From an uncultured Clostridia bacterium (GTDB lineage Bacteria; Bacillota; Clostridia; TANB77; CAG-508), in NCBI GenBank assembly GCA_947385375.1, contig CANDKR010000004.1:62001-126000 (forward strand): DNA of 64,000 bases, given 5' to 3'. The notes beneath the pieces are model-generated. The model was not told the origin of the DNA and did not search any database. It saw only the letters and a program-made list of their open reading frames with translations. Positions 15,382 to 42,605 of this stretch are shown here, one piece after another. Numbering within the stretch: position 1 is the first letter of the stretch; every line of letters starts with the position of its first letter. Position numbers and translations under genes: made by a program.

Positions 15382-18300
15382 TTATTTTAAAACTGTTTTT
15401 TTGATTACTATGATACCAATTACTAAGATTCCTAATGCAACTACTGCTACTATTAACATTTGAGTTGTAAGTATAGTATTTGTATTTAAACCAGTTGGTG
15501 GTGTAAATGTGATAAGCTCTGTTGCACTAGCATCTCTTTCTTCAAGTGAAGCTGTGAACTCTCCAAGTTTTGGTTCTGCGTTACCAGCGATAGTTTCAAT
15601 GTCTCTTCTACCAACTGTATTTTCAAATTTAACAATCTCAGCAATATTGTCATAAGCTAAATCTTCATCTTCGATTTGGCTATCAATTGATCTTGTCATT
15701 GTCATAGCCATTGCTGTTTGACAACTTGTATCTAACTCACCATTTTGTGTAGATGCTGTGAAAGGTACTAATTTGATTATAAATCCTGGGTTAGTTAATT
15801 TTTCGCCTTCTACATTATCAACACTTAGGACTAAGTTATTTCTTTGACTTGTAGTATAAGCAACACCATAATCATCTACGATAGTCTTATTACCGTCTTC
15901 ATCAGTTTCAATTAAGTCACTTGCGATAACTCTCTTCTCATCTAATTCGTCTGCTGTTACTGTTCTCCAGCTTGAATCTGGAGCTGTATTATCAGCTGCT
16001 TTAAATACTACGTCATTATCAACATAATCGATTAATTGTCTTACCATTGTTGTAGCAACTATATCGTTTTGTGTATAAGCTTCGTCTTTACCTATATAAT
16101 AGATACTTCCGATATGCTCACCGATATTTGGGTGGTAAATATTCTTTAATTTACCGTCTTCTTTTGTATAAATTTGTCTATCAATCTCTTCTGCTTTTGC
16201 AAGAATTTCTTCTGCACTAGCATTCTCTAAGAAGTTTGATGCTCTATCAACTTCACCAACATTTAGTGCTGTGAATTTGTAGATAACTTCTATATTTAGA
16301 GATTGAGCTATTGAGTCATCATAGTAAATGTATCTAAAGTTTTGTAATCCTTCTTCCTCATCTTTGTTTTGTGCAAGTAAGTTTTCTGTTCCGAAAGATT
16401 TTTCTCTATTTAGAGTAACATTTGCTGTGTACTCACTTGTTCCTGACTCTCTATCTACATCATAGTCATAACTAATGTCATAAACTGCTTTTAAGATAGT
16501 GTCATCAGTATTTGTTTTAACTGTAATTGCTTCAATTTCTTTATCAAGTACAATCTCTGTATTTGAACGTTCTTCTATACCACAGTCAATTGCATCTACA
16601 TTGTATGCATAATTAATTAAACTTACAGTACCTTTTTCACCGTTAACATCTGTTTTACCGTAAACATAATTTGATTTTAAGCCTTCTTGAGTTTCCTCAC
16701 CACCAGCTATAACTTCTGTTTGTTCACCAGTATTTGCATTTGTTATAACGATTCTTTGTCCTGATAGACTATGCATATTTTCAATGTTGAAGTTAATTTT
16801 TGCTGTGTCTGCAAACATACTTGTATTTTTATATAACTCTGTATGATCTGCATTATAATCATTAGCTGATGCTAATGCTGTTGTTATTGTGTTATCTAAT
16901 ACTTTTGAGTACGCGATAACTCTTAATCTTCTTGCCTCATTATCAATTGCATCTGAGTTATGGCTAACTACTTCACCTGCGTCATTATAATCACAAGTAT
17001 CAAAGTCATACCATTCATCATTTATAAATCCACCTTCAGCATATTCATGTTCAACGTCTGCTTGATATTCTGTTGTCTTGAAGTCTTGACCATTATATAC
17101 TGCTGGTTTTCTTGAATTGTCATCAGATGTTTGTGGTTCTGCCACTCCGTCTAATTTAACTAGGTTACCTTCGTCATCTAAGCTATCTGATGGGAAATCA
17201 CCATAAGTAAATCTTACTATATAATTTCCGGCTGGGATATTCTTAAATCCATATTCACCTAATTTTTCTGCTGTATTACCTGTTAAAGTAATACTATCAA
17301 ATCCTGTTACGCTCTCTAATGAGCTTCCATTTAAGAAGTCAAAGCTTTGTGATGTTGGCCATACGAAATCGTATTCTCTGTATGTATTATCAGCTTGTTT
17401 TACTCTAACTTTTTCTACCATCTCAGTAGTTAAGTTACCAATTTTTCTCTCGCCTTCATCATACATACCATTACCAATTTTTTGATTGTAATCGATTTCC
17501 TCTGTTTCTTTATCTTCCCAAGCCATACCATTTAAGTTTCTTGTCTCTGTGTACAAGTCTAAGGTTATAACTGGTGCTGAATCAGCGTCATCTTCATACC
17601 AAGCTTTTTCATTCTTGCTTTCGATATCAACATTGTTTGGTGCTGAATCTTTATCTACTTTACCAGCTACTTTATTTGTTTCTGGATAGAAAGTTGAGTA
17701 TGCTCCAATTTCTGCAACATTAGCTTTTGTTCCTAATCTTACATAAGATTTTGTAGCATCGCTTGCTCCGTCTCCAAAAGATGCTGGTGTTTCATCTGTT
17801 CTTACTTTAAATGTTAAGTATAATTCAAGTTTTTCTCCTACTGCTAATGTTAAATCGCTTCCACTTAAATCAATTTCTGCTTTATAGTAGTTCTTGCTTT
17901 CTTCACGTCTTACATTATCTGATGGGTTCATTGCTTCACTACCTGATGTTTCTATTGTTGTTGAACTATTTACTAGTCCTCCGCTTACGTTAACTTTTCC
18001 TTCAAGTGATTTCTTTAATTGCTCTGCCCACATACTGTCTCCAGATTGACCTTTCTTAATTACGTAAGCTGGTGACGCTACTGTTGTTTCTTCATCAACA
18101 CTCATACCATTTGCTTCTTGAATGTATCTTGTAACTGTAGTGTCAACTAACTCTAAGTCTTCATCAAAGTAATCTGTTAATTTCTTAACTTCTGCTAAGT
18201 ATGAATCTGAGTTATTATATACATTAATCTTATAGGTTAAGAATACATCTAAATCTAATTCGTCTGAGATATTCTCTTTACCTATTGATCTGTAGAATTC

Positions 18301-21300
18301 TTCAAGAGCTCCATGTACTTCGTTTCCTTCATATACTTTTGCTCTATAATAGTAATCACTTTCATATAAATCTAATTTATATGAGATATTTGCGTCTGCA
18401 ACTTTTAATTGTAGATTTAAGTAATCTTGATATTCTTCTGATTCAAAATCTACATATTCATTATATTTGTAGTTCATCAATTTTTGATTTACTACAACAT
18501 TTGCTGAGTAAACATCTTTTGTTACTGCTAGCTCAGCTTCATCTCTTTTTACTAAACCTAAATTGATATTTAGTAAATAAGGATATGTTGCTGAATAATG
18601 ATATTTAATTACTAATCCGCCTTCGATTTTATTCAAATATTTATCAACATAGTCGATATGATATTTGCTATCAAATGGGAATGTTAATCCTCTTGTAGAT
18701 GTTCTTGCTGGCATTTTGAATGGTTCTCTAATGAATCCATTTTCTAATGTTTGAAGTTCCGATATTTTTCTAGTATTTCCATCTAATGATGGCATTGAAT
18801 CAGTTGAGTAATATGTTAAATCTGTTCTTTCTCCATTAGTTCCTTCTGCATAACCATTTGTAACTCCGTCATCATCAATAGGTGAATCACCTGTAAATGT
18901 TGCGAATTTATTGTTAAATGCATCTCTTTCCGCTTCATCGTCAACTGCCATTGAGTCTTTGTTAAATTTATTTCTTTCAGCATTTGTTGTATTATTTCTA
19001 AATGCTGCTGCGTTTCCGCCACCTGTTACTAAGAACTCTGTTGGTTCATAAGTTTGACCATCATAGTAGAATTCTACATCATAATCTGCTCTTGTAATAC
19101 CTTGTGCTTTTTCTTCGTCTGTTATACCAGGTACTGACATTCTAGGAGCTGACCAGATACCTTCTACTGATGTGTATATTGGATAAGATATTTCTGTATC
19201 AGAACCTTCTTCATAGCCTGTTGCAAGCACCCTTCCAACTTCTGTTTGTCCTGAATATAATACTTTCCAAATTAATACTTCTACATTTTGTAATCTTTCT
19301 TCTGAATCATCTAATAAACCATTTGGTTTAGAATCTTCAGTATTTTTGTCTTCTTCATTTAATGGAGCGTCAACCCAAACTGTACCAGACATTGCCATTG
19401 TTAAGTCATATTCTGTTGTAATCTTGTACTCGTTTACACAAACAACTTGACAAGTAGCATCATCTTTTAAAGTTCCTGTTGCATTAGATATTCTAATTTG
19501 TCTCCATCCTTCTGGTAAGTCACCCTCACTTACTGAGTATGTAGGAGCATCTCCTTTCCAAGTAATTGATGGTGATGTCCAAGTTTCATCTGGTTTTAAA
19601 GTTGTTTCAATTATCTTGTTTCCATTTACAATACTTTCTCCGTCACATTCAAATGTTCCAGAAATTCTTATTTTAAATGGGAAGTCTAAGTTATTATCTA
19701 CTCCTATTTTATCATCTGTCTCGATTTCTTTCTTAACAGATATCTTACCTTCGTGGTCTTCTCCGTTATTTATAACGTTAACAGAAATCTTTTGATTTGC
19801 TGAAAGTGTACCACTCTTGTTGTCAATATTTACTAATGTCCAACCTTCTGGAAGGTTAATTTCTTCTACTTCATAAGTTGGAGCTGGTGTTCCTTTTTCC
19901 CAAACATATTTGTCTGTCCAAGTTTGACCTGCTTTTAACTCTTTTGTATAAGTTTTATCTCCAACTCTTAATTTTACTGTAAATGTTTCTGAGCTTGTTG
20001 CTCCTCCATCAAGCATTTTCTTGATAGAAATTTCTGCACTATCCCAAGCTTCATCATTATATGCGTCTACTCTTGCTACATTTTTATCTGATAGTTTACC
20101 AGTTTTATTTGTAATCTTATATAGTTTTGCACCTTCTGGAATATTAACCTCTTCTACTCTATATGTTGGAGCTTTTCCTGAATAAGTAATATCTCCTGAG
20201 GTCCAAGTTTCACCTGGGTGAATTGTTATAATTCCATCTGAATTTGTATTAGGTCCTACATATAATTTATTAGCAATATATAGCTTGAATTGGAATTCCC
20301 AATCGCTATGTTCTGGATCTGCATGTTTTGTGATTGAAACTGAACCTTTATGTTCAACTTCTTGGTTTGTTGCTGTAAATGTAAATGTTCCATCTTGCTC
20401 TGTTTTTTGAATGTCAATTAATTTATAATTATCAGCTGTGTCGCCTTCGAAAGCTTCTTTAATTTCAACATTAGGTCTGCCTTCGCCTTCTTTTACTTTA
20501 TAAGTTTGACTTTTGAATTTTACATTTCCTCTAACTTGAACTCTATCAAAGAATTCTCCATTTGTATATACATCAAATACGAATTTATCTGATGTAGATA
20601 CTTCATTTCCTTGTGCGTCTACTACTTTTTTATAAATTTCATAGTTCCACTCATCATCTAATGTAATGTCATCATCAGTTAAATCTAATTCTGTATATTC
20701 ATACCATCTAGCACCAACTACACCATAAGCTAATAATTGAGATGGTCTTTCTTCCATAGATGTTAAGTCTAACCAGTAATTCCATTTAATTGGATGTCTT
20801 GAGCTTTTTCCATGAACACAATTTCCGTTACAAGTACTATTTGGTCCATGTGAAGAATGTCCACAAGTACCAGGACAATATTCAGCAACTTCTGAATCTG
20901 GTGTCCAAGTTTGTTTGAAGTATGTACCTTCTAGTTTTTCATATCTACCACCTGCATTCATATATTTGAAATCAAAATGTAGGTTTTCAATTTTTGTTAC
21001 TCCTGGAATATAATCTAATTCAATATAGAATACTTCGTTAGAGTGTGGGAATCTATATTTATCTGTAACTTCCCTTTGGTCTTTTAAGAAGTTAAATTTC
21101 CATTTTGCACCTTCAACTTCTTGAATTTCATTTGCTATACCTTCTTCATCTTCTTTGATAGCAAATGGAACTTCACCTAAGTTAGTATATAATTGTGCAT
21201 TTGTAATACCAGCAAATTGAACTGGTTCTCTATCATTTTGTGGAATATCTTGTAAACTTGCTGTATTTGTAAGTTGGCTTCCATTAGCATCTGTAATTGG

Positions 21301-22284
21301 ATTTCCATATTCATCAACTTGTGCATATTCGAAATCACCATCTAAATCTGCTAATTGGAAACTCTCTTCAACATAATCTACTGAGAATGGTCCAATTGTC
21401 CAAGTATTTGTATCTGTATCAAATGTTGCTGTAACTTTGTCTTCGCCTGTTGCTACTCCATTTTCATCTTGCTCTATTTTACCATCTTGGTTTGCATCTT
21501 CATTGAATGCTGGTTCATATTCTAACTCTGGAGCAGGTACTGTTCCTGAGTGAAGTTCACCATTTTTATCTGTAAATTCATAATCTGTATTTACAAAATC
21601 TTTTTCATTTACACTTTTTGCAATTTGTCTAATGTATGAATAAAATGCTTCTGCTTCATAATATAAAGCATTATATGTATTATGATTTGTTCCTAAGTTG
21701 TCATCTGTTACCCACCAAGCATATTGGATAGTTGTATAATTATTTGGATAAAATACTTTCTCTCTTACTTCTGGGTCTACTTCTGCAATCATTTCTGCTA
21801 ATATATAAGAGTTATCTGGGCTTGTTATAATTATTTCTGTTGCTTCGTACCAAGCCCAGCTTTCTGCACTATAAGATTCTGAAGTGTATGGTGATTGTGG
21901 ATCTTCTGAGTTTGTTATTGTAAGTGCTGTACTTCCTTCATCACCTTTTGTTAATTCACCAAGATGTTTTCCTGCATCAGTATATTGTGTACTTCCTGCT
22001 TCTGTTTCTAAAGTAGGAGTATTTCTACCACCTAAGTGTGAGTCATTACCACCATGATAACAACATAAGATATCATATCTTTCTTTTAAGTCTTCCCAAG
22101 TTAAGTATTGTCCTTGGAAGTTTATGGTCTCTTCTGTTCCCATACTTCCTCTTGATTCCATTTCTGTTGTAACTACTGTTGCATATGCTAGAACGGCAGT
22201 GCTTAATAGTGTAACAAGAATTATTGTTAATGAAATTATAAATTTTTTGTCAAGTTCTGAAAATAATTTCTTCATATTAAACAC
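15382..22284 (-). CDS. Giant surface adhesin B' with predicted thioester domain and Cna-B-like modules
   Basis: The 2300-aa product has a signal segment (about residues 14-35) and a C-terminal membrane helix with a short basic tail. The N-terminal 80-230 region fits a thioester (TED) domain: LCCYHGG with Cys74/75, and TIQYAWW with Gln187, preceded by the ILAEMIAEVD-type segment typical of the family. Thioester domains can bond covalently to host targets. A small Cys/His-rich insert lies at about 468-495. Three tandem Cna-B-like repeats follow (about 648-948, each opening ISIKK or similar), then SdrD-B-like modules (GTVWVD, GMAWED) and DUF11-like modules. The C-terminal third is clearly homologous to the 3010-aa protein, including TPPTGL before the anchor. 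It overlaps the upstream gene by 8 bp. AGG lies shortly before the ATG; MKK at residue 4 is an alternative start. Confidence 0.85.
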   Translation of the reverse strand: MFNMKKLFSELDKKFIISLTIILVTLLSTAVLAYATVVTTEMESRGSMGTEETINFQGQYLTWEDLKERYDILCCYHGGNDSHLGGRNTPTLETEAGSTQYTDAGKHLGELTKGDEGSTALTITNSEDPQSPYTSESYSAESWAWYEATEIIITSPDNSYILAEMIAEVDPEVREKVFYPNNYTTIQYAWWVTDDNLGTNHNTYNALYYEAEAFYSYIRQIAKSVNEKDFVNTDYEFTDKNGELHSGTVPAPELEYEPAFNEDANQDGKIEQDENGVATGEDKVTATFDTDTNTWTIGPFSVDYVEESFQLADLDGDFEYAQVDEYGNPITDANGSQLTNTASLQDIPQNDREPVQFAGITNAQLYTNLGEVPFAIKEDEEGIANEIQEVEGAKWKFNFLKDQREVTDKYRFPHSNEVFYIELDYIPGVTKIENLHFDFKYMNAGGRYEKLEGTYFKQTWTPDSEVAEYCPGTCGHSSHGPNSTCNGNCVHGKSSRHPIKWNYWLDLTSMEERPSQLLAYGVVGARWYEYTELDLTDDDITLDDEWNYEIYKKVVDAQGNEVSTSDKFVFDVYTNGEFFDRVQVRGNVKFKSQTYKVKEGEGRPNVEIKEAFEGDTADNYKLIDIQKTEQDGTFTFTATNQEVEHKGSVSITKHADPEHSDWEFQFKLYIANKLYVGPNTNSDGIITIHPGETWTSGDITYSGKAPTYRVEEVNIPEGAKLYKITNKTGKLSDKNVARVDAYNDEAWDSAEISIKKMLDGGATSSETFTVKLRVGDKTYTKELKAGQTWTDKYVWEKGTPAPTYEVEEINLPEGWTLVNIDNKSGTLSANQKISVNVINNGEDHEGKISVKKEIETDDKIGVDNNLDFPFKIRISGTFECDGESIVNGNKIIETTLKPDETWTSPSITWKGDAPTYSVSEGDLPEGWRQIRISNATGTLKDDATCQVVCVNEYKITTEYDLTMAMSGTVWVDAPLNEEDKNTEDSKPNGLLDDSEERLQNVEVLIWKVLYSGQTEVGRVLATGYEEGSDTEISYPIYTSVEGIWSAPRMSVPGITDEEKAQGITRADYDVEFYYDGQTYEPTEFLVTGGGNAAAFRNNTTNAERNKFNKDSMAVDDEAERDAFNNKFATFTGDSPIDDDGVTNGYAEGTNGERTDLTYYSTDSMPSLDGNTRKISELQTLENGFIREPFKMPARTSTRGLTFPFDSKYHIDYVDKYLNKIEGGLVIKYHYSATYPYLLNINLGLVKRDEAELAVTKDVYSANVVVNQKLMNYKYNEYVDFESEEYQDYLNLQLKVADANISYKLDLYESDYYYRAKVYEGNEVHGALEEFYRSIGKENISDELDLDVFLTYKINVYNNSDSYLAEVKKLTDYFDEDLELVDTTVTRYIQEANGMSVDEETTVASPAYVIKKGQSGDSMWAEQLKKSLEGKVNVSGGLVNSSTTIETSGSEAMNPSDNVRREESKNYYKAEIDLSGSDLTLAVGEKLELYLTFKVRTDETPASFGDGASDATKSYVRLGTKANVAEIGAYSTFYPETNKVAGKVDKDSAPNNVDIESKNEKAWYEDDADSAPVITLDLYTETRNLNGMAWEDKETEEIDYNQKIGNGMYDEGERKIGNLTTEMVEKVRVKQADNTYREYDFVWPTSQSFDFLNGSSLESVTGFDSITLTGNTAEKLGEYGFKNIPAGNYIVRFTYGDFPSDSLDDEGNLVKLDGVAEPQTSDDNSRKPAVYNGQDFKTTEYQADVEHEYAEGGFINDEWYDFDTCDYNDAGEVVSHNSDAIDNEARRLRVIAYSKVLDNTITTALASANDYNADHTELYKNTSMFADTAKINFNIENMHSLSGQRIVITNANTGEQTEVIAGGEETQEGLKSNYVYGKTDVNGEKGTVSLINYAYNVDAIDCGIEERSNTEIVLDKEIEAITVKTNTDDTILKAVYDISYDYDVDRESGTSEYTANVTLNREKSFGTENLLAQNKDEEEGLQNFRYIYYDDSIAQSLNIEVIYKFTALNVGEVDRASNFLENASAEEILAKAEEIDRQIYTKEDGKLKNIYHPNIGEHIGSIYYIGKDEAYTQNDIVATTMVRQLIDYVDNDVVFKAADNTAPDSSWRTVTADELDEKRVIASDLIETDEDGNKTIVDDYGVAYTTSQRNNLVLSVDNVEGEKLTNPGFIIKLVPFTASTQNGELDTSCQTAMAMTMTRSIDSQIEDEDLAYDNIAEIVKFENTVGRRDIETIAGNAEPKLGEFTASLEERDASATELITFTPPTGLNTNTILTTQMLIVAVVALGILVIGIIVIKKTVLK

Positions 22285-25200
22285 CTACCTTTCTTCTTTT
22301 TAATATAATTTGTGTGTATGCTATAAATATAACTATTGATCCTAAAATTACACTTGTTATAATTACTGAGATGTAAATAAATACTTCACCAGTTTTTACT
22401 GTAATAATTGCGTCTGCTGAACTCATATCATTTTCGCCTTGTGCTTTATTAAGTGGTGTTGAGTTTGTATCAGATACACCGTAAATATTGTAATCTTCAG
22501 CAATCTCTGCTATGTTATTTACGTTTCCAGTATTATCTTCTGTCATTTGTTTAGTTAATACTAATTTAACTTCTCTTGACTCACCTGGTTGTAATTCTAC
22601 ATCTGCTAAGGCTGATGTGTATAAGTTTCCGTCTGTACCTGTGTACCAATCTGGATTTAATGTTGAGCTAAATGTCATACCTGCTGGGATATAATCAACT
22701 ATTCTCTTAACATTACCAGCTATTTCTCCAAGATTTGAAACTTTAATTTTGTATTCAATATATGTTGTTGAACTTGATATGTGTTTTGCTGCAATTGGCA
22801 TTTGTGCAAGTGTTGCATTTTCAAATTCTACACTGTCTGTTCCTGCTCTATTTTGTACTGTCATTTTGGTTATAGATGTTTCTAATGCTAAATCAAAAGT
22901 ATCTGCATATAAGAAACCTATATCTATATTTGATATACTAGAATCTGCAACTACTATTCTATCAGTAACAGCTGCATTTCTTTGTCTACCATCTTGCTCA
23001 ATCTTTGTTGTAATTGCATCAGAGTTAACATTTACTTCAACTCCTGCTTTTTGATAAGTTGTAACTGTATATTTTACTGTGTCATAATCAAAAATTACTA
23101 AGTAATTTCCATTTGCAATTCCTGCAAATGTATATGCACCTTTACTATCTGTTGTAACAGATTTTATGATTGTGCCTGTATCTGCATCTACAAGTCTTGC
23201 TGTAATTCCTGACATTTTTTGTTCAGAGTCATCTCTTACACCGTCTTTATTCTCATCAAGCCAAGCATTACCTGTAACTTTATATGTTTTTGTTATATTT
23301 GAAGAACTGCTTCCTCCACCATTTGCTGTTGCTCCAGTATTCTCTACAATATCTTCAACTACTTGATTTGCATATTCTGGGTCAGCCTCAACAATGTGTG
23401 TTATTTCATTTGATGTAATTGGTTCTGACATTGTTTTTGATTGAACTGTACCTTTGTTAGTAACTGTTGTTTCAGCTGCTCCATTTAAGCTCTTAGCTAA
23501 AGCTTTTACTGTTGCTTGAAGCTCTTTACCAGCTGGGATACTAACTGTAATTGTTGGAGCTGTTGCTCCTGAAACTCTTTTTGTTGATGTTTTTCCGTTT
23601 ATACCATAAGTAATTGTTTTTGCAAGTAATCCTTCTGGTACATAATCTATTAAGCTAACATCTTGTGCTTCATAACTACCCTCATTTTTTACTGAGAATA
23701 CATATTCTATTGTTTCACCTTCAGTTACATAAGTATTTGTTGTGTTTGTACTTTGAGAAAATACTAAGCTTGCTCTACCAACACCTAACTCACTTATATT
23801 AGAAGTAACTAATTCTAATCCGTTTGCCCTTGCTGTCGCTACTGCACTTACAACTTTATAAGTTGAACTTGCATCTAATAATTTTGTTGTTACAAATATT
23901 TTTACTTGTGTTGTTGTTTTTGATTTAATTGTTCCTGCGTCTACTTTAACTGTTCTTGTTCCTTCATCATAACTTACTAATGTATAGTTTTTACCAGTTG
24001 CATGTGATGTTGATGCTTCTACAACATATCCTTCTTTATAAGAAACTTCATCAGGTAATCTAAATTCAATAATTCCTCCTGTTAAATCTTCTTTTGAAAG
24101 GTTTGTTGCTGAAATATCATATCTAACTTCACGATCTTCATTAACTGTTGTATTTCCATCTGTATAGTTATGTGATAATAATAATTTTAATACTGTTTCT
24201 TCAACTGTAAATTTAATTGGCTCTGATACAGCACCTTGACCTAAATCATCTGCCATAGCTGTTGCCATAACTGTAAAGTCTTTATTTTCTTCTCCAGCTC
24301 TTGCTGTAAGTTTGAAACTTACTTCTTTCATTTCGTCAATTCCTAATGTTGGTATATTATATGTAATTGTTCCATTTTCTACGTTTGTTGTAATTCCTTC
24401 TTCTGCAATAACTTCACCAATTACTAATCCGCTTTCAACTGGTACTGATAGTACAACATTTTGTGCAGAAGTTTTACCTGTATTTCTAACTTCAGCTTTA
24501 AAGATTATTTCTTCATATTCTTTAATTTTACCATCAACATCTGCTGTTAATTTTACTGAAAGTTCAGGACCTTCTCCTGTGCTTAAACCAACTTTGTCTG
24601 CAACTGCTTCTTCATCGATTGTTGCAACTTCTGTATGGTTTTTATAATATGCTAAGAATGTACCATATATGTTTTCATTTAATTGTAAGTTTTCTGGAAT
24701 TTCATAATCATAAGTAAATCTTAAAATATCAGAAACTTGCATTTCATAATTACTATCTTGTGGAACTATTAAGTATGACTTAATATTATCAAAATTTTCT
24801 ACATTTTCTGTCCAACCATTTGAACTATCATTTAAGTCTTTTGTAGCTTCTCCGTTTTCAGAATAATATACTTTAAAACTTGCTGTATTTTTCTCATCAG
24901 CTACTATACCAGAAACTAATCTAGTATCAACTGTTGTTCCTAAATCTTCATCTGTTTTTATATCTTTAACACCTTTAAAAGGTATTCTACCTAAGATACA
25001 AAAATCTGAAACTACATTATCATTATTGTTCATTGCAATAATTTCCATTGTTGCAATTCTTGAAGCTGCATTTTTAGCAATTTCAGCTTCTTGTTCACCT
25101 TGTCTGATAGAAGTTAATACTGTTCCCATATCATCAAAGTTTTTTGTACTGTTAACTACTACTAATCCTGTTGGAGCTGAGTAGTAGATTGGTAATAATG

Positions 25201-27382: not shown

Positions 27383-27441
27383 AAATTCATCCTCCTAACA
27401 AACTTTTTGACATAGTATGACTCTATTATCATATATATAAT

Positions 27442-33800: not shown

Positions 33801-36800
33801 TTGTACCTTCTTTTGTATAAATATATCTTTCTGATGGTGACTCTGCTGTCCATTCTTCTGTTCCATCAGATATTGATATTAACTCACAATTTTCTGGTAG
33901 GAAGTCAATTATCTTAGCTTCTACTTTTTGTAATTGATGGTTTTCTAATCTGATTATGTATGTAACTATATCACCATACTCTACAAACACTGGATTTTCT
34001 TCTTTTAATCTTTCATTTTCTACTGCATTATCTGATAATTTTGCTCTTATTTCACTCTTTTGGAATGAAGTATCTAAATCTAATGTATTTCCTTCTATTT
34101 CTTCATGCTCAACATCTGTTATAAATTTATTTACTGTTACGTCTGTTGTAAGTCTTATGTCTAACTCGGTTGTGATTGGTGTCTTGATTACTGCTGTATA
34201 TGCATCACGTACTGCTAAGAATGTTTGTCCTTTAGCAACACCCTTATATGGATTCTGCCATTTTGGTATGTACCAACATTCTGTATGTCCTTCACCGCTG
34301 TAAGCATGTACTTTTGTTGTACCTGTATGTGGACATCTGTAATATGCCCAACCAGTTCTATAATGTCCATCACAAGAGCAGTTACATCCTGACCTTGTTC
34401 CTCCGCTTGGACATTCGTGTCCACCTAGACAGTAGTATCTTATACAACTGCTACCACATGTGTGTGTACATCCATCCTTACAACCTAGACCACATCTATG
34501 TGTACAATATCCATAGTCCCAATCCCAATTATCACATGAATGATAATGATTTGCTTCATCAGTCCAATGTAATCCAGATGAGCTTCTAGCTGAACCTGGG
34601 CTACAACTATGGTCTCTTAAACATTCATGCCAGCCTGGTGTCGACCTCTCATTATCACCATATCCTATATAATCATTTGGATATCGTCCTGAGTTTGGAC
34701 AATATGCATAATATGTTGTTTCTTGCCAGTCACCTATTTTATCATATTTTGTTCTGCTTTCTGGTTCTCCCCACTTATCACTACCACCTTCTAATTGTTT
34801 ATCTGTCTTAGTTATATGATAATTTTCCCAACATTGTGTACCATTTGCATCTGCATCTCTTGTCCATTTTGTGACTACATATTTTGAGCAAATTACCCAT
34901 CCACGTCCATCTGATTTTGTTTGTCTATAATTAAATTCAAATTTTGTTAATTTTACTGCACTCTCAATAACTGATTTTTTAATAGTTATATAGAAAGTCG
35001 AATTTGGATATGGGAATTCATACTCTGTTTCTGATGGTGTTCTTATATATGTTGCAGATATAGCATGTCCTTTATTTCCTGTCTCTCTTCCTTTCATATC
35101 TGTATATACTATTTCAACTTGATCGTCTACTAATTTTCCAATATCTACTTCTATTGGTGCTCCTGCCTCATTTTCAAAAGTAACTTTACCTTCTAATATA
35201 CCACCAATCATACTCTTTTTCTCTCCTAAGTAAGAGCCTGAAAAGTTTTCTATATTTCTTTCATCTACTGCAAAAGCTAGAGCATAATCACTCATGATGA
35301 ATGGTCCTACTTTATAATAGTATTCTCCATTTTCTTCGTAAATCGTTGTACCTGTTGAATCATCTTTACTACCTACTTTTTCACCTTTTACTTCTTCTGT
35401 AAAATCATCTGATCCTGGATCAGCATTTATTTTTACTGATGGTCTATTAAGTAGATTTTCATCTTTTCCTTCAATTGCTGCTGCGTGTTTTGCTGCTTCA
35501 TCTCCTGAAATATTAACTGTTAGTAATGCTTCATACTCATTTAAAGCAGCTCCTGCTTCCCATAATTTAGAATTCATTACTCTATTAGCATCTACCTCAG
35601 AATATTCAACATCTTCTGCTGCTTCTGAACTTGTATCTCCTTGTGTTACATCTTCTACACTTACATCTGTATCTACATTTCCTCCGCCTTCACCACGGGC
35701 TGGATCACCTACAACACCCCATATAGCATTCTGTGCTCTTTCTTGATTATATCTATTAGAATTTATATCTGTATAATTTCCTGTCATCTTTTCAGAGAAA
35801 CTTACTGCATATGGGAATATGTTTGAATGATATGTTCCAAATTTATTATTTATTGTATAAATATTTGTATATTCTTCCCAGTAATGTACATTTGAATATA
35901 CATATCTTGAGTTCTTATTTTCTGTAGTTGCTGGTTTTCCTCCTGAGCTTGGTTTTCCTCCTGTTCCAACATTACCACCTACTACTATATCTGAAATTCC
36001 TATACCTATTCCTAATTCTCCAGTAGTTTCACCTGCTGATGCTCTTTCACCTGTAAAATCAGTTGAAAGACCAAAAGTTAAACCATTTTGCACTGTGCTT
36101 GTACCATAACGAGTTTTTCCATCAGCACAAGTTTGTCTTGCGTGATCTGGTTCAATAACCATATCTAAGTGATCACTACTATTGAAAGCATCTGGATTAA
36201 AATATGTTATACTATAAGCTCCATAACTACTATTATTGGTTTGAATTATACTAGGAATACTTAAATCTTGACTTCTACTATGGTGATCCATTTGAAAGTA
36301 TCCATGATATCTACCAATAGCTTGTCCACCTTTTAAGCAGAAGAAAGATGGAAAGGATCTTAACGCTCTTAAACCAGTACTCATACTTGGTCCTGCATCT
36401 ATATTAGTATCATTTAAAAAATCCATTAAGTTTTTTATAGTAGTTCCTTTTACATCACCACTGTTTCCAAATTTTACTTTTGGAGTAATTTCTTCTGATT
36501 TATATTTTATTTTTACTCTTCCACTTGGTAGAGTTTCTCTGCTTTCCTCAACACTTTTTACGTCTGCTACTTCCCAAGCTGGCTCGCCTTCTAGTAAATA
36601 AGTTTTACCTTTGTGGTTATATTTTGCTTCTACTATGTAGTCACCAACTGTAACATTACCCTCTTGGATTGCTTTTACAGTTGTTTGCTTTTGTAATTCT
36701 TCAGGAGTCTGGCTATCTTCTTTTGTATTAAATAATGCACTCCAGTCAAAACCACTAGCTGTCATTTTAAAACTTGTAAACAATACTATCAGCATAAAAA

Positions 36801-36831
36801 CTGCTAATATTTTCGTTAATTTACTTTTCAT
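27805..36831 (-). CDS. Giant surface adhesin B with predicted thioester domain and Cys/His-rich insert
   Basis: This 3008-aa protein is the longest in the window. It has a signal peptide (about residues 1-28) and a C-terminal membrane helix with a basic tail. Counting from the first possible ATG (36837), the thioester signature is FFCLKGG with Cys167 and AQNAIWGVV with Gln369, which fits the TED pattern. A Cys/His-rich insert lies at about 650-860 (about 19 Cys and 13 His). A Pro-rich linker follows near 1090-1115, then SdrD-B-like modules (GTVWLDVDKDGHIG, GYVWDDARSE) and DUF11-like modules. The ATG at 36831 is preferred because it is 6 bases after GGAGG; the one at 36837 directly abuts it. 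It follows the 1919-aa gene by about 14 bp, as operon partner. Confidence 0.85.
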   Translation of the reverse strand: MKSKLTKILAVFMLIVLFTSFKMTASGFDWSALFNTKEDSQTPEELQKQTTVKAIQEGNVTVGDYIVEAKYNHKGKTYLLEGEPAWEVADVKSVEESRETLPSGRVKIKYKSEEITPKVKFGNSGDVKGTTIKNLMDFLNDTNIDAGPSMSTGLRALRSFPSFFCLKGGQAIGRYHGYFQMDHHSRSQDLSIPSIIQTNNSSYGAYSITYFNPDAFNSSDHLDMVIEPDHARQTCADGKTRYGTSTVQNGLTFGLSTDFTGERASAGETTGELGIGIGISDIVVGGNVGTGGKPSSGGKPATTENKNSRYVYSNVHYWEEYTNIYTINNKFGTYHSNIFPYAVSFSEKMTGNYTDINSNRYNQERAQNAIWGVVGDPARGEGGGNVDTDVSVEDVTQGDTSSEAAEDVEYSEVDANRVMNSKLWEAGAALNEYEALLTVNISGDEAAKHAAAIEGKDENLLNRPSVKINADPGSDDFTEEVKGEKVGSKDDSTGTTIYEENGEYYYKVGPFIMSDYALAFAVDERNIENFSGSYLGEKKSMIGGILEGKVTFENEAGAPIEVDIGKLVDDQVEIVYTDMKGRETGNKGHAISATYIRTPSETEYEFPYPNSTFYITIKKSVIESAVKLTKFEFNYRQTKSDGRGWVICSKYVVTKWTRDADANGTQCWENYHITKTDKQLEGGSDKWGEPESRTKYDKIGDWQETTYYAYCPNSGRYPNDYIGYGDNERSTPGWHECLRDHSCSPGSARSSSGLHWTDEANHYHSCDNWDWDYGYCTHRCGLGCKDGCTHTCGSSCIRYYCLGGHECPSGGTRSGCNCSCDGHYRTGWAYYRCPHTGTTKVHAYSGEGHTECWYIPKWQNPYKGVAKGQTFLAVRDAYTAVIKTPITTELDIRLTTDVTVNKFITDVEHEEIEGNTLDLDTSFQKSEIRAKLSDNAVENERLKEENPVFVEYGDIVTYIIRLENHQLQKVEAKIIDFLPENCELISISDGTEEWTAESPSERYIYTKEGTKTTTQEGVMGEKVSYTTHKFKMETQWLQIPGGTQDAPGKVDLTVKVKVLDWVDGLDAGGLTSGVVQGDTVGGGEDINPDDPFGPPTTPPTPPTPNPRPTPSTPTGQLLKFENKAQIITNNIGYVQGDELNVDYMRTVYDSEDRPGPVVNLAELDPNKLTESSDWYALNNYNLGINKFISDYKSPVSEANEERGITKDEKIEVDDDTKSRSQMSEADKEARPFPAEKNDILTYKIRLTNDAQDEYTEKSSYGGKKPATQVRPNNVIDEMHEGLRLADQGELSAVGISGIPVSAKIYDSSGNVKVDNVNVTYTNVGGGNGRTRYEFTIENFSNGKYVLLDPGDYLEYTVYVKVIESNMYLGKLDNEASYKILTNVNAKTLDRIIQNEDGSVNENMAPQQKTKEWVKMKDLVIAGTVWLDVDKDGHIGPGKNGILGNMLDVRQEPSTKLPDYNVEYAMKNIVVKLYKEDGTLVRTTATNDEGLYTFAQTYDENSGTLTWCDGEYTHITAAKDSDQRIDKAEPKDPTNKTYGSGAKLVNYYIEFEYDGLVYKSTEIYSNDKNINGDGTYNDPYEIDSNAYEFKDVREEFNTNYEIIAYNKGYKGDGTTPEHPDLKYEKKDHESYIRVNKDRVITARSFIKGKDLTKSIENTKLLWLYKQQSTELPETEYLKFINLGLEEREDVDLSITHDVYELKTTINGEEMTYEFNQNKYTRKDPENTAANEIDKEKAPGTEKFDSERFMTGYRGDGNGQTPTYYNFEYYLEDYNYRISQYNIQTVRNYKGSPLRTNYDAIVNDGGNSVILDNTLGTDSVTNALVTGRESELNTEIKYRIRVTNNVIDNDEPYLPSFENGASVDIPVYTGVNEIVEYYSEDFVDIQAGANGEIQAFNVKTKDANDYLVNTAMKVAEAKAYLPDGTEVDVTLSNTSPYNTTRTIEGYDTIFITPTNQNFATNALTGTNIKAGQLILAEGESLDIIIKFVVEKEAETPNKVEMETILGAKENVAEVSAYSTYYKEGETYKSASLVDADSNPGNFGEAYEGVDVNNAGYIKFYEDDTFKTGINLTIPTPTIIPDPDPDDPDPDPPTPVNRDKEFIERTLIGYVWDDARSETAENDDGTQYLGDGKWNTSVNAIAEARKNRAKLADGSLAVPNGEENDIRVQDVEAKLVEQIRIPVNNVGEVISDKGPEGNAEGIAEERIYEDTIYVNEDSVMETRTDANGEYMLSGYIPGEYIVKFTYGDDVTKEKCLIFNGQDYKSTSYQAGEAVLAENAQPQGEKTAGDVRLDILEKDGISDAKDDEMRRLEVIGYSETMNNQKNEILRGINSTDRNAMIGNTAMFAETADFLVRTEKEIRKVTVLTYQEYNTKIIETISQARFRVNNVDFGIEYRPELQLGINKYISNITLTTSDQNGGKSDAPLVDAVFDEFYGVVKETDYVTGATTFCTDSEGEIIRVDPAASTEIINSVLSSAGVNTSSVEKNNDGTYILAVAGTELNKDKSIGLSNVQYLPNEYETDAEGNPVTVEANGKVLVSSTQGFAYIVVDDDIMQGATIKIKYLFTGTNLGEIDRVSSNLSDLRFKENNEVRKYDRTINDSSSYYNEYDYQISGQRDKLTLINQNYSAAKTARNALFSEYYRYELNGNDKVKYLNGATSDLMYDNLKGEAENDILYKVKQKYMKANDRVVEIVDVENAHTDTTMLTPVNSALTGSTYYGRYLGSTYFTGRINEDMDVLAELKVDKVLDYIDNDLVFNNDDNRGEDRLWKTTTAAELFSDGMLNETTYSYYQDGELISDNAQIQANKEALDKKLVDSDGRAYNTEQRSNLAISLDDRVRDDYGQPGAPALEEDTTTNKKFTNFLIPRYSREKSLDSFGTISLYASKVISPEDENDDMVYENIAEIIQYSSVTGRVTNLATTIGNAKIEELTNSTPDKRPNESSEYYEGRTESDTASVEKVTLTPPTGLDRLNRTVRKVVEGASYTVVTIIAVILVCVVVLVIIKIYRNRRIK

Positions 36832-36845
36832 AACCATCCTCCTTT

Positions 36846-39800
36846 CTATTTATAAATTTTCTTTGTGTTAATTTTTACTTTTAATTTGTTGTTTTCTATT
36901 TTTATTATCATTCTTTCTGTTGCTATTGCATAAGCTCCAAGTGCTATAATTACTATTACAACAGTTAATGGTACAAAGTTACCACCTGTTCTAATTGAAA
37001 TAATAGTTTCTTGTGTTGATGTATTATTTTCCTTTTGTTCTGTTACATTTGAACTACTTTCTGCTTCTGCAATTTCAATTAAGTTACTTATTACACCAGT
37101 ATTTTCTGTATTCATCTTTCTTACTAATACTAAGCTTACTTCTTTTTTCTCATTAGGTGCAATATTTTCGCCTTTTAAGCTTTCATTGTATAGTTTGCCA
37201 TCATTTCCTAAATACCAGCCTTTATTGTCTTTCTCATTGAATTCCATATCCTTTGGTAAATGGTCTACTAATTTTAGAGCTTTACCTGATACATTACCAG
37301 TATTTGTAACAACTATTTTGTATGTTAATGTTACTGTTGTATTTTTCATTTTCTTAGCATCAACTTCTAATTTTGCAAGGTCTGCATTATCATAAGTTTT
37401 TGATACTTGTTTTCCTTTTACATCAACTACTGATTTAGCAATAAATTTGTCAACTTTTAAATCAAAAGTATCTCTTGACTGTAAACCACAATTAATGTTT
37501 TCTAAGTTTAAGTCTGAAATTGTAATTGTATTTGTTACAGCTATTCCATCAGTATAATTCATTGCATCAGAATTTCTATCCTCTTCTATATCAGCACCTT
37601 TATATGTTGCAGAAATATATTTTTCTCCATCATATTTAAAGTTAACTGTATAATCTCCTGCTTCAATGCCTGTAAATTGATATATACCACTTCCATTTGT
37701 TGTAGTTGTTTTTACAACATTTCTTCCTTGATGTAGTTCTACTTCTAGTCCTGAAATTCCTTTTTCTTCATCATCTTTTCTATTGTTTTTGTTTGCATCT
37801 AACCAAACTAAACCTGTAATTGAATGTGTTTCTTTTGGTGCTTGATTTACATTAGGTGTTGAATTATTATTGTTGTTTGAACTATTGTTGTTATTTGAAT
37901 TGCTATTATTGTTATTACTATTTGAATTATTATTGTTGTTGTTATTATTATTTATAGGGTATCTATTGTTATTGCTTGTTCCACTGTTGTTATTATTGCT
38001 GTTATTATTGTTTGAATTATTATTGTTATTATTGTTATTCGTTTTATCTGAATTATATATAGGTGTTTCTTCTTGTTTATATGGATCTTCTTCAATATTT
38101 ATATTTATAACATTTGATTCAACAGTACCAACATTTTTTACACTTACTTCTGCTTTGTTTGAAATTGTTTTTGCAACTCCATCTAATCTTTGAGCTTTTC
38201 CTATAATAGTAATTATAAATTTTGCACCTGGTTTAAAGTTTAGCATAGTATAAGTAAATGTCGCTCCGCCATTATATCTTCCAGCTTCATTTCCATCTAT
38301 TTGCACTATAACATCTTTTAAATGTTCTGAAATTATATCTTTAAATACAACATTTTCTGCAACATAATTTCCTTTATTTTCAATTTCTAATGTTAATTTT
38401 ACTTGTTCATTTTCTTTAACATTATTTATAACATCTGTTGTTTGGTTAATTATAATATTAGGTGCTACATATTTTCTTGATAAAACATAACTTTTTTCTG
38501 GTTCTAAGCCATCAGCACTAACCATAAAGAAAGTATCAAGGTTTTTATCATTTCCAGTTTTTCCTTTTGCTCCTATGTAAACACTATATGCTTCTTCTGC
38601 TTTCATTTCTGCAAAAGTTACTGTTACTGTACGAGTAGCTTCATCAAATTTTAAGTCATATTTTCCATCTTCTTTATAAGTATATATTTCATTTTCACCA
38701 GTATATTCTACCGTGTTTGGTAAAGTTAATGTTACTACTACATTTTTCAAATCTTTGCCTGAAATATTGCAAAAATCGTTTGTATATGTAAATAATTGTC
38801 CTGGTTTAATTTCTGTTTTACATTCTGTATTTACTGTCATATCAAAATTAGATTTTACTAATTTATTTTTAACTGTATTTGTTGTAATTGCATCTCCAAA
38901 GTTTGCTGCTTTAATTGTAGCTTTATTCTCAAGATATACTGAATAATTTAAATCTACATATACCTTTTCAGAAACCTCTAATTCGCCTTCCATTGTTTTT
39001 TCTGTATAATAGTAACCTTTTTCATCTTTTTCAATTTTTACTCTTAATGTTCTAGCGTAATAAGCTTCTGGTGTAGGTATCTGTGCTGTTTTTACATAAT
39101 ATGAATATTCTTTCTTTTCTCCTGGTTGAATATTTTCGTAAACTGCATATAAAGTTTTAATATCTGTTGCTATATAGTTATCATTTCCATAACCATTTTC
39201 ATTAGTATATGCTTGTAATACTGCATCAAGTGGCATATCATTTTCGATTGTAACTTCTGTTGCTTCAACACTACCAGTATTAGCAATAGTTATTGTATAT
39301 TTAATGTATCTAGCTTCTCCAACATCTTTTCCATCTCCTATGTCAACTGACATACTAGCTTCTAGCTTTGGTCCAACTTCTGTTACTAAACCTACTAGGT
39401 CTGCGCTTGAAGTTTCATACATTACTGCAACATCTGAATGATTGTTGTAAAATGCACCAAATGAACCATAAAGCTCTACCTCATAAGGTAAATTTGCTGG
39501 AATTTGGAAACCATAATTAAACTTAAATACTGTTCCTGCTTCAACAGCACCTGTTGGTACTATCAAATATGATTTAACTTTGCTCATATCGCCTGGGTCT
39601 TTTCCCCATCCATTTGCAGGGTCATTTAAATCTTTTGTTGCTGAACCGTTGCTTGAATAATAAATATCACAACTTATTGGATTACTGTCAGCTGGAGTAA
39701 TTCCTGTTATCATTTCTGTATTTCTATTTGTACGTAATTTCTCACCTGTTATAACATCTGTTGCTTCTGAATGTGGTATTCTACCAAGCATTGCAACATC

Positions 39801-42605
39801 TGTACAAGTATTTCCTGTATTGTTCATTGCTGCTAAACTCATTGTAATTTGTTTTGGAACTTCTCCCATTGCAACTAAGGCTGTTATTTCGCCTTGGTCA
39901 ATACTCTCAAGAGTTCCTCCGACTCCGTCATAGTTTTCCATTGAGTTTGTTGTTATAAATCCTATTGGTGCTTTGTATGAGAATACTACTACATCAAAGC
40001 CATTTGTTGTTTTTAGTATTCCTTCAGGTGCTGGTGTTGAAATCTTCCAATCAGTTTGTGATTGATAATTTGTCACACCTTGGTTGAAGTAATACATTTT
40101 TAATTGGTCGTCTCTTCTTGGTGTATAATCATCTAATTGTATTTTTGTATTGATTATAATATTTGTTCCGTTTGTTCCGTCACTTGTACTAAAGTGTGTT
40201 TGGAAGCCTTCTAATTGAACTTTCATTCTTTGAATATTAGCTTCATCTTTGAAAAGTGTTATATTTTTAACTGCTAATCCATTTTCATATAATAGATTAA
40301 CTCCTCTTACTTCTACATTTTGTACATACTTAGGGAAGACAACTTCAAACTCTGGGTTTATGTATAAATCGCTCTTCTCTGTGTTGTTATTAAGCTCAAT
40401 TTTAATCTCAACATTGTCATTATCAACTGTTGTAGATAATTCTTCTTTACTCATTGAGATTTCAGCTCTTGTATAGCTTTTCTCAAAATATTTTTCAGTT
40501 TTAATTGGTGTAAGCGGTATAACTGAATCAGATGTACCATATCTTACTTCTGCTTTAATTCTGCTTTCAATCTTATCAAAATTATTGAAAACTGCTTTGT
40601 CATAAGTACATTTACCAATTGCTTTTACAAAATCAATTGTAAATGTTCCATTTGCTACTACGTTTTTGAAAGATACTTCGACACCGCGAACATCACCATT
40701 TAACGTAATTTCGCAATCTTCTTGTTTACTGCTATTATCTTTATTTAATGTATGTAAAACTTCACCTGTATTTGTTCTTACTTCTATAATTCCGCCTTGA
40801 TCTAATAATGTCATTAATTCATTGTATCTGAATTTAATCATTTTGTATTTAACATCTTGTGATTCTAACTCTATATTATCTTTATTAATATAGTATTCTT
40901 TTGTATCTTTTAATGTAAATTCTTCTAAAACATCATCTGTAAGTATATTTATACCTACTGTTGATGTAAATTCTGCTTCATAAACTGCATCTACTGAATT
41001 ATAGTTTGCATTTATTAAACCTTTGTTAATTGTATCTTCTGTTGTTCCTATTGAATATGTAATAAGCTCTCCAATATTAACAACTGTTGTTTTATCAGTA
41101 GAAAACTCTTTTACAACTAAATTGTTTGATCTTCCACTATATTCTTCAACTGTTGCTTTTCCTTTTAAACTTACAGTTACTTCTTCATTTCCGACATAAT
41201 CTTCATATCTTAAAACAACTGTATATATATCTTCGCCATTTGTTAAGACAGCTTCAGGATTTTGTACTTTTATAGTTATGGTTTTAGAACTTTCATCATA
41301 AGACCAATTGTCTTGTGAAAAAGTTACTTCGTTAATCTCTTGACCTTTTGTAGCTTTTAATTTTGTAGCATTTACTTCTAATGCTATTGGTAATTTTCCA
41401 TTAATTTGTGGTACTTCTATTTCTAAAGTTGTTTCTTTAGCTGGCAAGTAATTTTCATCTAGACACTCTCTACGAAGTATTACTTTTCCTTCAACTAAAG
41501 TTCCTTTTGTTCCTTCAATCTCAAAAGCTGAGATTTTTGAAATATCACTTGCAATCATAATATTGCTTGTATAAGTCCACTCTGTATTAACTGCGTCTGT
41601 TGCATTTATAGCTACTTCTTGTAAATCTTCATTTATATATGTTCCTGCTAAATCTAAATTTGCAGTTTTATATAAATCAGAAGGTTTTAAATTTTCACTT
41701 GCCTTATATCCAATTCTTACATAAATAGTAGTTGGATGAATGATATTTTCAACTAAAATTTCATTACCATTAATAATTTTTGCGCTACTTGAAGAAGGTG
41801 CTTTTATCTCTGCATCTTCTTTTTCTTTTACTTGATCTTCATATGCACTATCTTCATCCACCATAGTATCATCTGCTTCTACTACTGGTGGTGGTGTAAT
41901 TACTGATAATTCAGGTGCTTTTTCTTCTGCTGGTATTTCTGGCAATGTAGTCTCTGGGACTGTTTGCTCTGGTACTACTGTGTTTTCAGCAGGTACTGTA
42001 TTCTCAGTAGATATTGTATTGTCCGGAGTTGTAATTTCATTTGTACTAACTGTATTATCTGTATTTACAGTGTTTTGCTCTAAAGTATCTGATGATACCT
42101 CATTTGTAGTAGTTTCAGTGCTACTATCTGTAACGTTAGTATCTGGTAATGTGCCATCTAAACTAACTGTTGGTAATTCAGTATTTAGAACTTGCTCAGC
42201 TTGTAGCAATGGTTTATCTGCTTGTACAAGTTGATTTGCATTTTCCTCCTCTTCATCACCTTGTGTAGAGAAATTTAAAATTTCTAAAAATTCAAAATTT
42301 GGCTCTCCTTCATCAGTAATAGCCTTTATTGTTCCTGACTTCAAATAGCCTACTTCTTTTGGCTCTAGCTCTAGAACTAATGTCATATCTTGGTTAACAT
42401 CAGCTTTCATTTCTTTGATTTTCTTGTTATTTGCGTCTAAGAAATATGCCTCGTAATCAAGGTTACTCTTAGCAAATAGCTTGAAACCAAAGAACGAAAT
42501 ACCATCACTAGTTGCTAAAGCTTGCAAAGTAAGACCGCAATTTGAAAACGTCATAACGAATACGATAGCCATTACTAAGATTCTCTTAAGTACTTTGTTT
42601 TCCAT
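36846..42605 (-). CDS. Giant surface protein A with DUF11-like modules and poly-Asn stalk
   Basis: The 1919-aa product has a signal peptide ending ALATS (about residue 33), a Thr/Glu/Pro-rich acidic region at about 120-250, many beta-rich modules, and DUF11-like repeats at about 1090-1500. An Asn/Ser homopolymer stretch lies at about 1521-1582. An SdrD-B module (GLVWLDANKNNRKDDEEK) is at about 1592-1680, then another DUF11-like domain and a C-terminal membrane helix with a long basic tail. It is paralogous to the 1701-aa protein along much of its length. The ribosome binding site is AAAGGG, weaker than its neighbours. It is the first gene of operon I, upstream of the thioester adhesin. Confidence 0.85.
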   Translation of the reverse strand: MENKVLKRILVMAIVFVMTFSNCGLTLQALATSDGISFFGFKLFAKSNLDYEAYFLDANNKKIKEMKADVNQDMTLVLELEPKEVGYLKSGTIKAITDEGEPNFEFLEILNFSTQGDEEEENANQLVQADKPLLQAEQVLNTELPTVSLDGTLPDTNVTDSSTETTTNEVSSDTLEQNTVNTDNTVSTNEITTPDNTISTENTVPAENTVVPEQTVPETTLPEIPAEEKAPELSVITPPPVVEADDTMVDEDSAYEDQVKEKEDAEIKAPSSSSAKIINGNEILVENIIHPTTIYVRIGYKASENLKPSDLYKTANLDLAGTYINEDLQEVAINATDAVNTEWTYTSNIMIASDISKISAFEIEGTKGTLVEGKVILRRECLDENYLPAKETTLEIEVPQINGKLPIALEVNATKLKATKGQEINEVTFSQDNWSYDESSKTITIKVQNPEAVLTNGEDIYTVVLRYEDYVGNEEVTVSLKGKATVEEYSGRSNNLVVKEFSTDKTTVVNIGELITYSIGTTEDTINKGLINANYNSVDAVYEAEFTSTVGINILTDDVLEEFTLKDTKEYYINKDNIELESQDVKYKMIKFRYNELMTLLDQGGIIEVRTNTGEVLHTLNKDNSSKQEDCEITLNGDVRGVEVSFKNVVANGTFTIDFVKAIGKCTYDKAVFNNFDKIESRIKAEVRYGTSDSVIPLTPIKTEKYFEKSYTRAEISMSKEELSTTVDNDNVEIKIELNNNTEKSDLYINPEFEVVFPKYVQNVEVRGVNLLYENGLAVKNITLFKDEANIQRMKVQLEGFQTHFSTSDGTNGTNIIINTKIQLDDYTPRRDDQLKMYYFNQGVTNYQSQTDWKISTPAPEGILKTTNGFDVVVFSYKAPIGFITTNSMENYDGVGGTLESIDQGEITALVAMGEVPKQITMSLAAMNNTGNTCTDVAMLGRIPHSEATDVITGEKLRTNRNTEMITGITPADSNPISCDIYYSSNGSATKDLNDPANGWGKDPGDMSKVKSYLIVPTGAVEAGTVFKFNYGFQIPANLPYEVELYGSFGAFYNNHSDVAVMYETSSADLVGLVTEVGPKLEASMSVDIGDGKDVGEARYIKYTITIANTGSVEATEVTIENDMPLDAVLQAYTNENGYGNDNYIATDIKTLYAVYENIQPGEKKEYSYYVKTAQIPTPEAYYARTLRVKIEKDEKGYYYTEKTMEGELEVSEKVYVDLNYSVYLENKATIKAANFGDAITTNTVKNKLVKSNFDMTVNTECKTEIKPGQLFTYTNDFCNISGKDLKNVVVTLTLPNTVEYTGENEIYTYKEDGKYDLKFDEATRTVTVTFAEMKAEEAYSVYIGAKGKTGNDKNLDTFFMVSADGLEPEKSYVLSRKYVAPNIIINQTTDVINNVKENEQVKLTLEIENKGNYVAENVVFKDIISEHLKDVIVQIDGNEAGRYNGGATFTYTMLNFKPGAKFIITIIGKAQRLDGVAKTISNKAEVSVKNVGTVESNVININIEEDPYKQEETPIYNSDKTNNNNNNNNSNNNNSNNNNSGTSNNNRYPINNNNNNNNNSNSNNNNSNSNNNNSSNNNNNSTPNVNQAPKETHSITGLVWLDANKNNRKDDEEKGISGLEVELHQGRNVVKTTTTNGSGIYQFTGIEAGDYTVNFKYDGEKYISATYKGADIEEDRNSDAMNYTDGIAVTNTITISDLNLENINCGLQSRDTFDLKVDKFIAKSVVDVKGKQVSKTYDNADLAKLEVDAKKMKNTTVTLTYKIVVTNTGNVSGKALKLVDHLPKDMEFNEKDNKGWYLGNDGKLYNESLKGENIAPNEKKEVSLVLVRKMNTENTGVISNLIEIAEAESSSNVTEQKENNTSTQETIISIRTGGNFVPLTVVIVIIALGAYAIATERMIIKIENNKLKVKINTKKIYK
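37862..38040 (-). repeat. AAT/AAC-rich low-complexity tract encoding Asn/Ser stalk
   Basis: This in-frame tract encodes about 60 residues, mostly Asn with scattered Ser, interrupted by a short RYPI block. It lies between the ectodomain and the membrane-proximal SdrD-B module, where a flexible stalk would be useful. Such tracts are prone to length change by slippage. Confidence 0.85.

Follow-up and report, generated by a model that had tools for sequence, protein, structure and literature searches.

On the minus strand of the 64-kb stretch of DNA analyzed here (the window), two bicistronic operons at 15382-42605, A1-B1 and A2-B2, encode four giant surface proteins. This arrangement raises the question of whether each A works together with its B, and of what such a pair would do at the surface of an uncultured, gut-type member of the Clostridia. 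A preliminary description of the locus had proposed a two-gene module present twice in the same A-then-B order. The four ORFs were found in the order A1, B1, A2, B2 and at the lengths given there, the choice of start shifting B by 2-3 aa, and the motifs named in that description, i.e., ALATS, ATKDLND..NGW..SYLIVP, YIDND/YVDND..VF, and TPPTGL, were all present (Table 1).

Similarity of the copies and expression signals

The alignment of A1 with A2 covered about 1685 columns, nearly the full length, at 29% identity (581 bits, E 6e-180). For B1 and B2, the likeness claimed previously held for the C-terminal half (E 2e-31 and 1e-22), but the N-terminal halves shared a common domain plan with little readable identity, and pairwise alignment found one short N-terminal stretch with an E of 9e-4. 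No alignable similarity was found between A and B (best E 0.045 and 0.093).

Table 1. Features of the two operons and of related loci; positions are those of the window unless a contig is named.
Feature	Position	Strand	Length, parts, or remark
A1	36846..42605	-	1919 aa; signal peptide (..LQALATS), family-specific core ~280-1080, DUF11-type domains, Asn-rich linker ~1520-1585, SdrD_B 1595-1688, last DUF11/CLIPPER ~1714-1850, IRTGG + TM + basic tail
B1	27805..36837	-	3010 aa counted from first ATG; signal peptide, putative divergent thioester-type head (C167, QNAIW369-373, VGPF510), DUF11/SdrD_B-like stalk, anchor
A2	22277..27382	-	1701 aa; signal peptide (..TEALATS), family-specific core ~130-980, DUF11-type domains, SdrD_B 1373-1461, last DUF11/CLIPPER (K1533-D1563-N1623), VKTGE + TM anchor
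B2	15382..22284	-	2300 aa counted from GTG; putative divergent thioester domain (C74, QYAWW187-191, GPF298-300, candidate Gln516), four CnaB-type isopeptide repeats, region common to B1, TPPTGL + TM + KKTVLK anchor
B2 residues 40-545, thioester-domain-like head	20650..22167	-	class II motif order
B2 residues 546-955, four tandem CnaB-type repeats	19420..20649	-	
B2 sorting-type signal	15382..15501	-	TPPTGL + hydrophobic segment + IKKTVLK
B1 sorting-type signal	27805..27954	-	TPPTGL + hydrophobic segment + RNRRIK
Operon II promoter-like site	27624..27652	-	TTGAAA-17-TATAAT with TG extension; 11/12, consensus match only
Terminator-like hairpin after B1	27765..27791	-	GACCCACAAATTTAAAGCTTGTGGGTC then ATTTTTTG on minus strand
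Terminator-like hairpin after B2	15338..15368	-	14 bp + T run, between operon II and spoIIE
Terminator-like hairpin after minC	43422..43448	-	between minC and A1-B1 operon
Terminator-like hairpin upstream of A1	42813..42836	-	
TED-DUF11 protein, this genome	L013:11209-15192 = G000:C4 ~21-25 kb	-	1327 aa; Pfam TED

Terminator-like hairpins, of which shuffled sequence contained far fewer, follow minC, B1, and B2, and another precedes A1; the promoter-like site of operon II, a strong one, lies about 240 bp upstream of A2. These signals, all consensus patterns, suggest that the window probably contains two separate bicistronic operons, co-transcribed with neither minC nor spoIIE; the hairpin upstream of A1 indicates that A1-B1 is probably a transcription unit of its own. 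Signals for coupled translation were found as well. Directly past the A1 stop, B1 is preceded by AAAGGAGG, and the ATG best spaced to it, at 36831, is the likely true start (3008 aa). The A2/B2 junction reads AAAGGTAGGTGTTTAATATG, suggesting that B2 probably starts at the well-spaced ATG 22275 (2297 aa). Across the genus, the last codons of A2 (e.g., AAA GGA GGT GTT TAA TATG) double as the B2 ribosome-binding site, and in most species the B2 ATG follows the A stop by no more than a few bases. The A-to-B gaps of intact pairs ranged from -32 to +39 bp, with a single exception of 178 bp, and those from B to the next A were at least 243 bp; gaps of about 1-2 kb within pairs came from broken ORFs. 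The B genes of G014, G006, G007, and G001 (L090-L092, L095-L098, L111-L113, and L102-L105), mostly B1-type, were split into at least two ORFs, for which assembly error, decay, or phase variation are possible causes.

Distribution, locus, and co-inheritance of the pair

A was present in 34 of the 36 genus genomes, this one included, and a search with the C-terminal half of B found that protein in 33. Wherever the assembly continues, B comes after A, so the two-gene order that was to be sought in other genomes holds throughout the genus where the locus is assembled, and there neither A nor B occurred independently of the other. Only a short domain match was obtained for G002 and G013 in the A search: in G002 the contig stops after minC, so the apparent absence of the pair sits at an assembly edge, and in G013, where minC was not found, the pair is apparently absent. 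In G031, a large ORF comes next after minC and A, on a contig that is cut. The 20 genomes searched from the order's other families all lacked the pair, and among 291 genomes sampled across the class, only members of the same family gave long matches to A. Viral collections held no relatives of the module, plasmid matches were limited to the SdrD_B domain, and a single-sequence scan of the genome contigs returned one relative, L073. A 24,599-residue open frame in G030 was rejected as an artefact, being a run of N. In the reading favored here, the A-B module goes back to the ancestor of this Clostridia family.

Wherever both flanks were assembled, the locus order in the family was mreB/C/D-pbp2-minC-[A-B]n-spoIIE, with one A-B copy (G004, G028, G022), two (most genomes), or three (G001, G017); G004 and G239 carried extra pairs away from the minC-spoIIE site. 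Spo0A is encoded in the genome, and minD lies at a separate site away from the module. This fixed position among shape, division, and sporulation genes leaves room for a structural or cell-cell role, where A and B would be envelope proteins of growth or division (a surface layer, a sheath, or a septal or cell-cell connector) and the head would cross-link cells or the cell's own surface. In agreement, nearly all genomes of the genus have A-B, which cannot be said of many adhesins, and a thioester domain (TED) acts on another bacterial cell in Bacillus conjugation (PMC8092201). However, terminators part the operons from minC and spoIIE; B heads differ strongly between species in length and sequence, as ligand binding would predict; and an N-terminal TED with an isopeptide stalk and a wall anchor is the published covalent-adhesin layout (PMC4450167, PMC6194298). 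We regard a structural role as unlikely.

Some neighboring genes deserve separate mention. The gene mreB precedes mreC here (window 47596-48612) and in G033, G004, and some other genomes; many genus members showed no mreB match before mreC, and an ORF of about 190-230 aa occupies that place instead. At window 2754-3962 (minus strand) lies a gene for a 402-aa surface protein with, by eye, a cohesin-like N-terminus, and at 4046-8575 (minus strand) one for a 1509-aa leucine-rich-repeat protein with an end that looks dockerin-like, DVNGDGVADAADS..DIDADNEVTVVDVRLLLYHRA; the two may form a cohesin-dockerin surface pair and lie beside lemA/htpX in several genus genomes. A two-gene cassette resembling, again by eye, an AbiEi/AbiEii-type toxin-antitoxin adjoins a tRNA-Lys gene at 54433-55799 (minus strand).

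Whether the paired genes co-evolve, a question posed with the original claim, was addressed with trees of 36 pairs. The A and B trees were strongly congruent (Mantel r 0.957); when partners were swapped within genomes, the mean r was 0.36, and none of the 2000 swaps reached 0.957. In both trees, A1/B1 and A2/B2 formed separate deep clades, indicating that the duplication seen in the window is older than the present species of the genus. With both pairs significantly similar and the clades of the two trees matching, the module was duplicated as a unit, as had been proposed. Later tandem duplications (G012, G016, G035, G001, G017) mostly copied the whole pair as well.

Single-ORF A::B fusions of 2601-4080 aa were detected in G012, G020, and G004, and twice in G298, a genome of another genus. 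They retain the xTG and membrane segment of A, then a short basic loop and the signal-type segment of B, which has a signal-peptidase-like site (VYA/ADS, VFA/VET, and similar). At 42%, the fused B of G004 is more similar to its unfused neighbor than to the G012 and G020 fusions (about 28%), and the B half of the G298 fusions had, outside G298, an unfused B of G195 as its nearest relative. These affinities suggest that fusion probably arose at least three times. Assembly error could account for any one fusion, but it is unlikely to account for all of them. In G004:C5 (~57.8-79.4 kb), a fused A::B gene has an unfused A-B pair of its own family directly beside it; this site lies downstream of lemA/htpX and of a 3D-domain protein gene, not at the minC site.

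The congruent trees, the coupling signals, the strict order, and the fusions in three lineages point to selection for 1:1 co-production. The same observations argue against two independent fibrillar adhesins that would share an operon for expression only and would not cooperate physically. That A and B each have their own signal peptide and anchor, and no sequence in common, fits such independence, which we nevertheless find distinctly improbable. Collectively, the earlier suggestion that A and B work together is supported, and physical contact between them is predicted.

Domain architecture of B and A

Neither B1 nor B2 gave a match at the cut-off of the Pfam TED family (PF08341), and one related-genus B scored an E of 0.25. 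A PDB profile search with the alignment of B heads recognized nothing, and phmmer with B2 found nothing. A profile of the TED family, built from the genus's own Pfam-TED proteins, matched the B of G195 with an E of 2e-5 (best reversed decoy, 1.1); this B lies in a minC-A-B-A-B-spoIIE locus of a related genus. With hhalign, related-genera B proteins matched TED (E 1.6e-6, Prob 90), and B2-type proteins matched related-genera B (E 5e-9, Prob 96), while the direct B2-TED match was weak (E 0.002, Prob 13); all reversed decoys had E of 0.24 or more. Comparisons of the B heads with a loose class-wide TED alignment were not significant (E 0.13 and 0.03). A column-shuffle control was unusable, some shuffles scoring very high, and was replaced by the genus-level TED profile with reversed decoys. 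The weak direct match and the strong stepwise matches indicate that the homology to TED is transitive; judged by these profiles, the B head is a putative divergent class II-type TED, remotely related to the known ones.

The order of motifs agrees with this assignment. A class II TED has a [YFL]C motif, a TQxxPhiW helix, a beta-sandwich, and a bond-forming Gln (PMC4450167, PMC6194298). The B2 head has Cys, a TQxxPhiW helix motif, a putative beta-sandwich with GPF and FYI strands, and Gln, in that order. Invariant in 24/24 B2-type proteins were Cys74, usually within [YFL]C or [YFL]CC, Gln187 (QxAWW), the glycine G298 (GPF), Tyr304, Pro413, Phe419, and Gln516. The helix motif QxA[WFI]W, of the TQxxPhiW type, has its Gln at Q187 in all 24 B2-type proteins and at Q369 in 9/9 B1-type proteins; C167 of B1 is kept in eight of these nine, and B1 also has QxAxW and VGPF. 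The Gln of QxAWW was dropped as a candidate thioester Gln, because the published motif order (PMC4450167, PMC6194298) points to the later Q516. This candidate bond-forming Gln of B2 (24/24) lies within SQxLALGxxAARWY, and the position aligned to it reads YQNLI/SQNLL in related-genera B vs. LQPIV in TED. For B1, the candidate Q871 was not conserved among B1 relatives, and its placement is insecure. Thioester formation in the B head is predicted. An AlphaFold model of the B2 head from two sequences (pLDDT 29) was discarded. Cys/His-rich inserts (e.g., CTHRCGLGCKDGCTHTCGSSC), which may form disulfides or bind metal, occur in the head, at residues ~650-860 of B1 (window ~34260-34890) and 469-500 of B2 (~20785-20880).

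Behind the head, B2 carries four repeats of about 100 residues each. Pfam and NCBIfam found nothing anywhere on B2; on B1 they gave weak SdrD_B/DUF11 matches. A Lys, a Glu, and an Asn are identical across all four repeats, and the triads of repeats 1-3 were conserved in 20-24 of the 24 B2-type proteins. AlphaFold, given the four repeats alone, modeled one repeat with a pLDDT of 88. This model matched the CnaB domains of PitA, Cpa, and Cna (Foldseek E 2e-5; Z up to 10.5), its best PDB matches being all CnaB/pilin domains, and related B proteins have curated SpaA domains at the same position. As modeled, the B2 stalk has the CnaB fold with isopeptide-type triads. The intact B proteins checked end in a TPPTG, SPPTG, TPNTG, or MPSTG-type motif, not the canonical LPXTG, followed by a hydrophobic segment and a basic tail, and a sortase is predicted to act on this anchor. 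The genome contains six sortase matches, of which none lies near the module or in the window.

The likeness of the B2 repeat to pilins and Cpa would also fit a sortase-assembled pilus with A as the shaft and B as a tip adhesin such as Cpa, for which a pilus-presented TED is known (PMC4450167). Against it stand the missing sortase gene in module and window, the size of A and B (1700-3000 aa each), and the xTG of A, in which the proline typical of pilin sorting signals is missing. A pilus is therefore very improbable.

A has no TED and is a DUF11/SdrD_B protein: on A1 and A2, Pfam and NCBIfam found SdrD_B and DUF11, the latter (PF01345) above its cut-off. The SdrD_B domain matched the solved SdrD, and the conserved core of about 850 residues matched nothing in Pfam or PDB, phmmer included. 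In the last DUF11, K1533, D1563, and N1623 were invariant in 36/36 proteins, with a Lys-Asp-Asn spacing of 30/60 vs. 33/58 in the solved CLIPPER; CLIPPER domains form isopeptides through Lys-Asp-Asn (PMC12617251). A TG precedes the membrane segment of A in 35/36.

Given what the computations show, namely homology between the copies, A-B pairing, signals of coupling, joint inheritance, gene fusion, a CnaB fold, conserved motifs, and transitive TED homology, we consider it probable that B is a covalent fibrillar adhesin and A its dedicated partner, forming a 1:1 surface pair per operon; adhesion as the role of B is predicted from its sequence. A and B would be made from one mRNA by coupled translation, each operon giving a dedicated 1:1 surface protein pair. 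The N-terminal class II-type TED of B would hold a strained Cys-Gln thioester, and attack by an amine of the target molecule would produce a permanent bond. A stalk of CnaB domains locked by isopeptide bonds, together with more Ig-like domains, would keep the head off the cell, and the TPPTG sorting signal would attach B to the wall. Its obligate partner A would be a fibre of DUF11 and SdrD_B domains that has a core specific to the family and is anchored by an xTG-TM end; it would probably stand next to B, serving as a scaffold, a guard, or a co-receptor. More tentatively, and with considerable doubt, A may keep the thioester head of B inactive or position it, or the head may bond covalently, either with A or with a sister cell, which would yield a covalently sealed heterodimer or a link between cells. 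If so, fused A::B would be a precursor cut by signal peptidase into exact 1:1 parts, and A would be, to our knowledge, the first known dedicated partner of a thioester adhesin.

Comparison with known systems

Most accounts of thioester adhesins concern single proteins, largely from pathogens. They belong, like CnaB stalks and DUF11 fibres, to kinds already known. Our literature search, most subscription journals lying outside its coverage, found no description of the A-B pairing.

The closest relatives in layout are the TIE proteins, i.e., adhesins with thioester, isopeptide, and ester domains (SfbI, FbaB, BaTIE, SaTIE, EfmTIE86, CpTIE). They resemble B in being secreted, with an N-terminal thioester-type head, a Lys-Glu-Asn isopeptide stalk, and a C-terminal sorting-type signal (PMC4450167, PMC6194298). 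B, in contrast, is far longer, and its motif is TPPTG; its head lies below Pfam TED detection and has inserts rich in Cys and His, and the Cys and Gln of the head are widely spaced. Moreover, B always occurs with the second giant A, a pairing absent from the TIE accounts in the sections of these papers that were covered. TIEpLS20, of the Bacillus subtilis plasmid pLS20, likewise has a class II TED, whose Cys is required for function, and Cna domains, but it is the product of a plasmid-borne single gene, is without a sorting signal, and has a role in conjugation (PMC8092201). A shares the SdrD_B and DUF11 ends and the Lys-Asp-Asn set with the DUF11/CLIPPER and SdrD_B fibrillar adhesins (PMC12617251), and differs from them in its unmatched core and its obligate link to B.

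Pfam TED proteins were present in 40/40 genus genomes searched, and most genus genomes encode a TED-DUF11-type protein besides A-B. In the 1327-aa family, YC155, QQxAIW, and Gln448 were invariant and GPF (358-360) nearly so. The member in this genome is like B in its TED motif order and like A in its DUF11 stalk and SISTGD-TM anchor; unlike A-B, it is encoded by a single gene with no partner, which shares a contig with the module at a distance of about 50-80 kb.

The novelty lies in how two giants, one of them headed by a putative TED, are paired in an uncultured Clostridia family: the pairing is obligate and ancient, and duplication and fusion of the two genes have both occurred repeatedly. 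This family would thus have a thioester adhesin at a fixed chromosomal site with a constant giant partner, the pair being multiplied as a unit, and the divergent B heads would represent a branch of TED-like domains missed by Pfam. The pair makes testable whether covalent adhesins need partners and how commensals may attach permanently.
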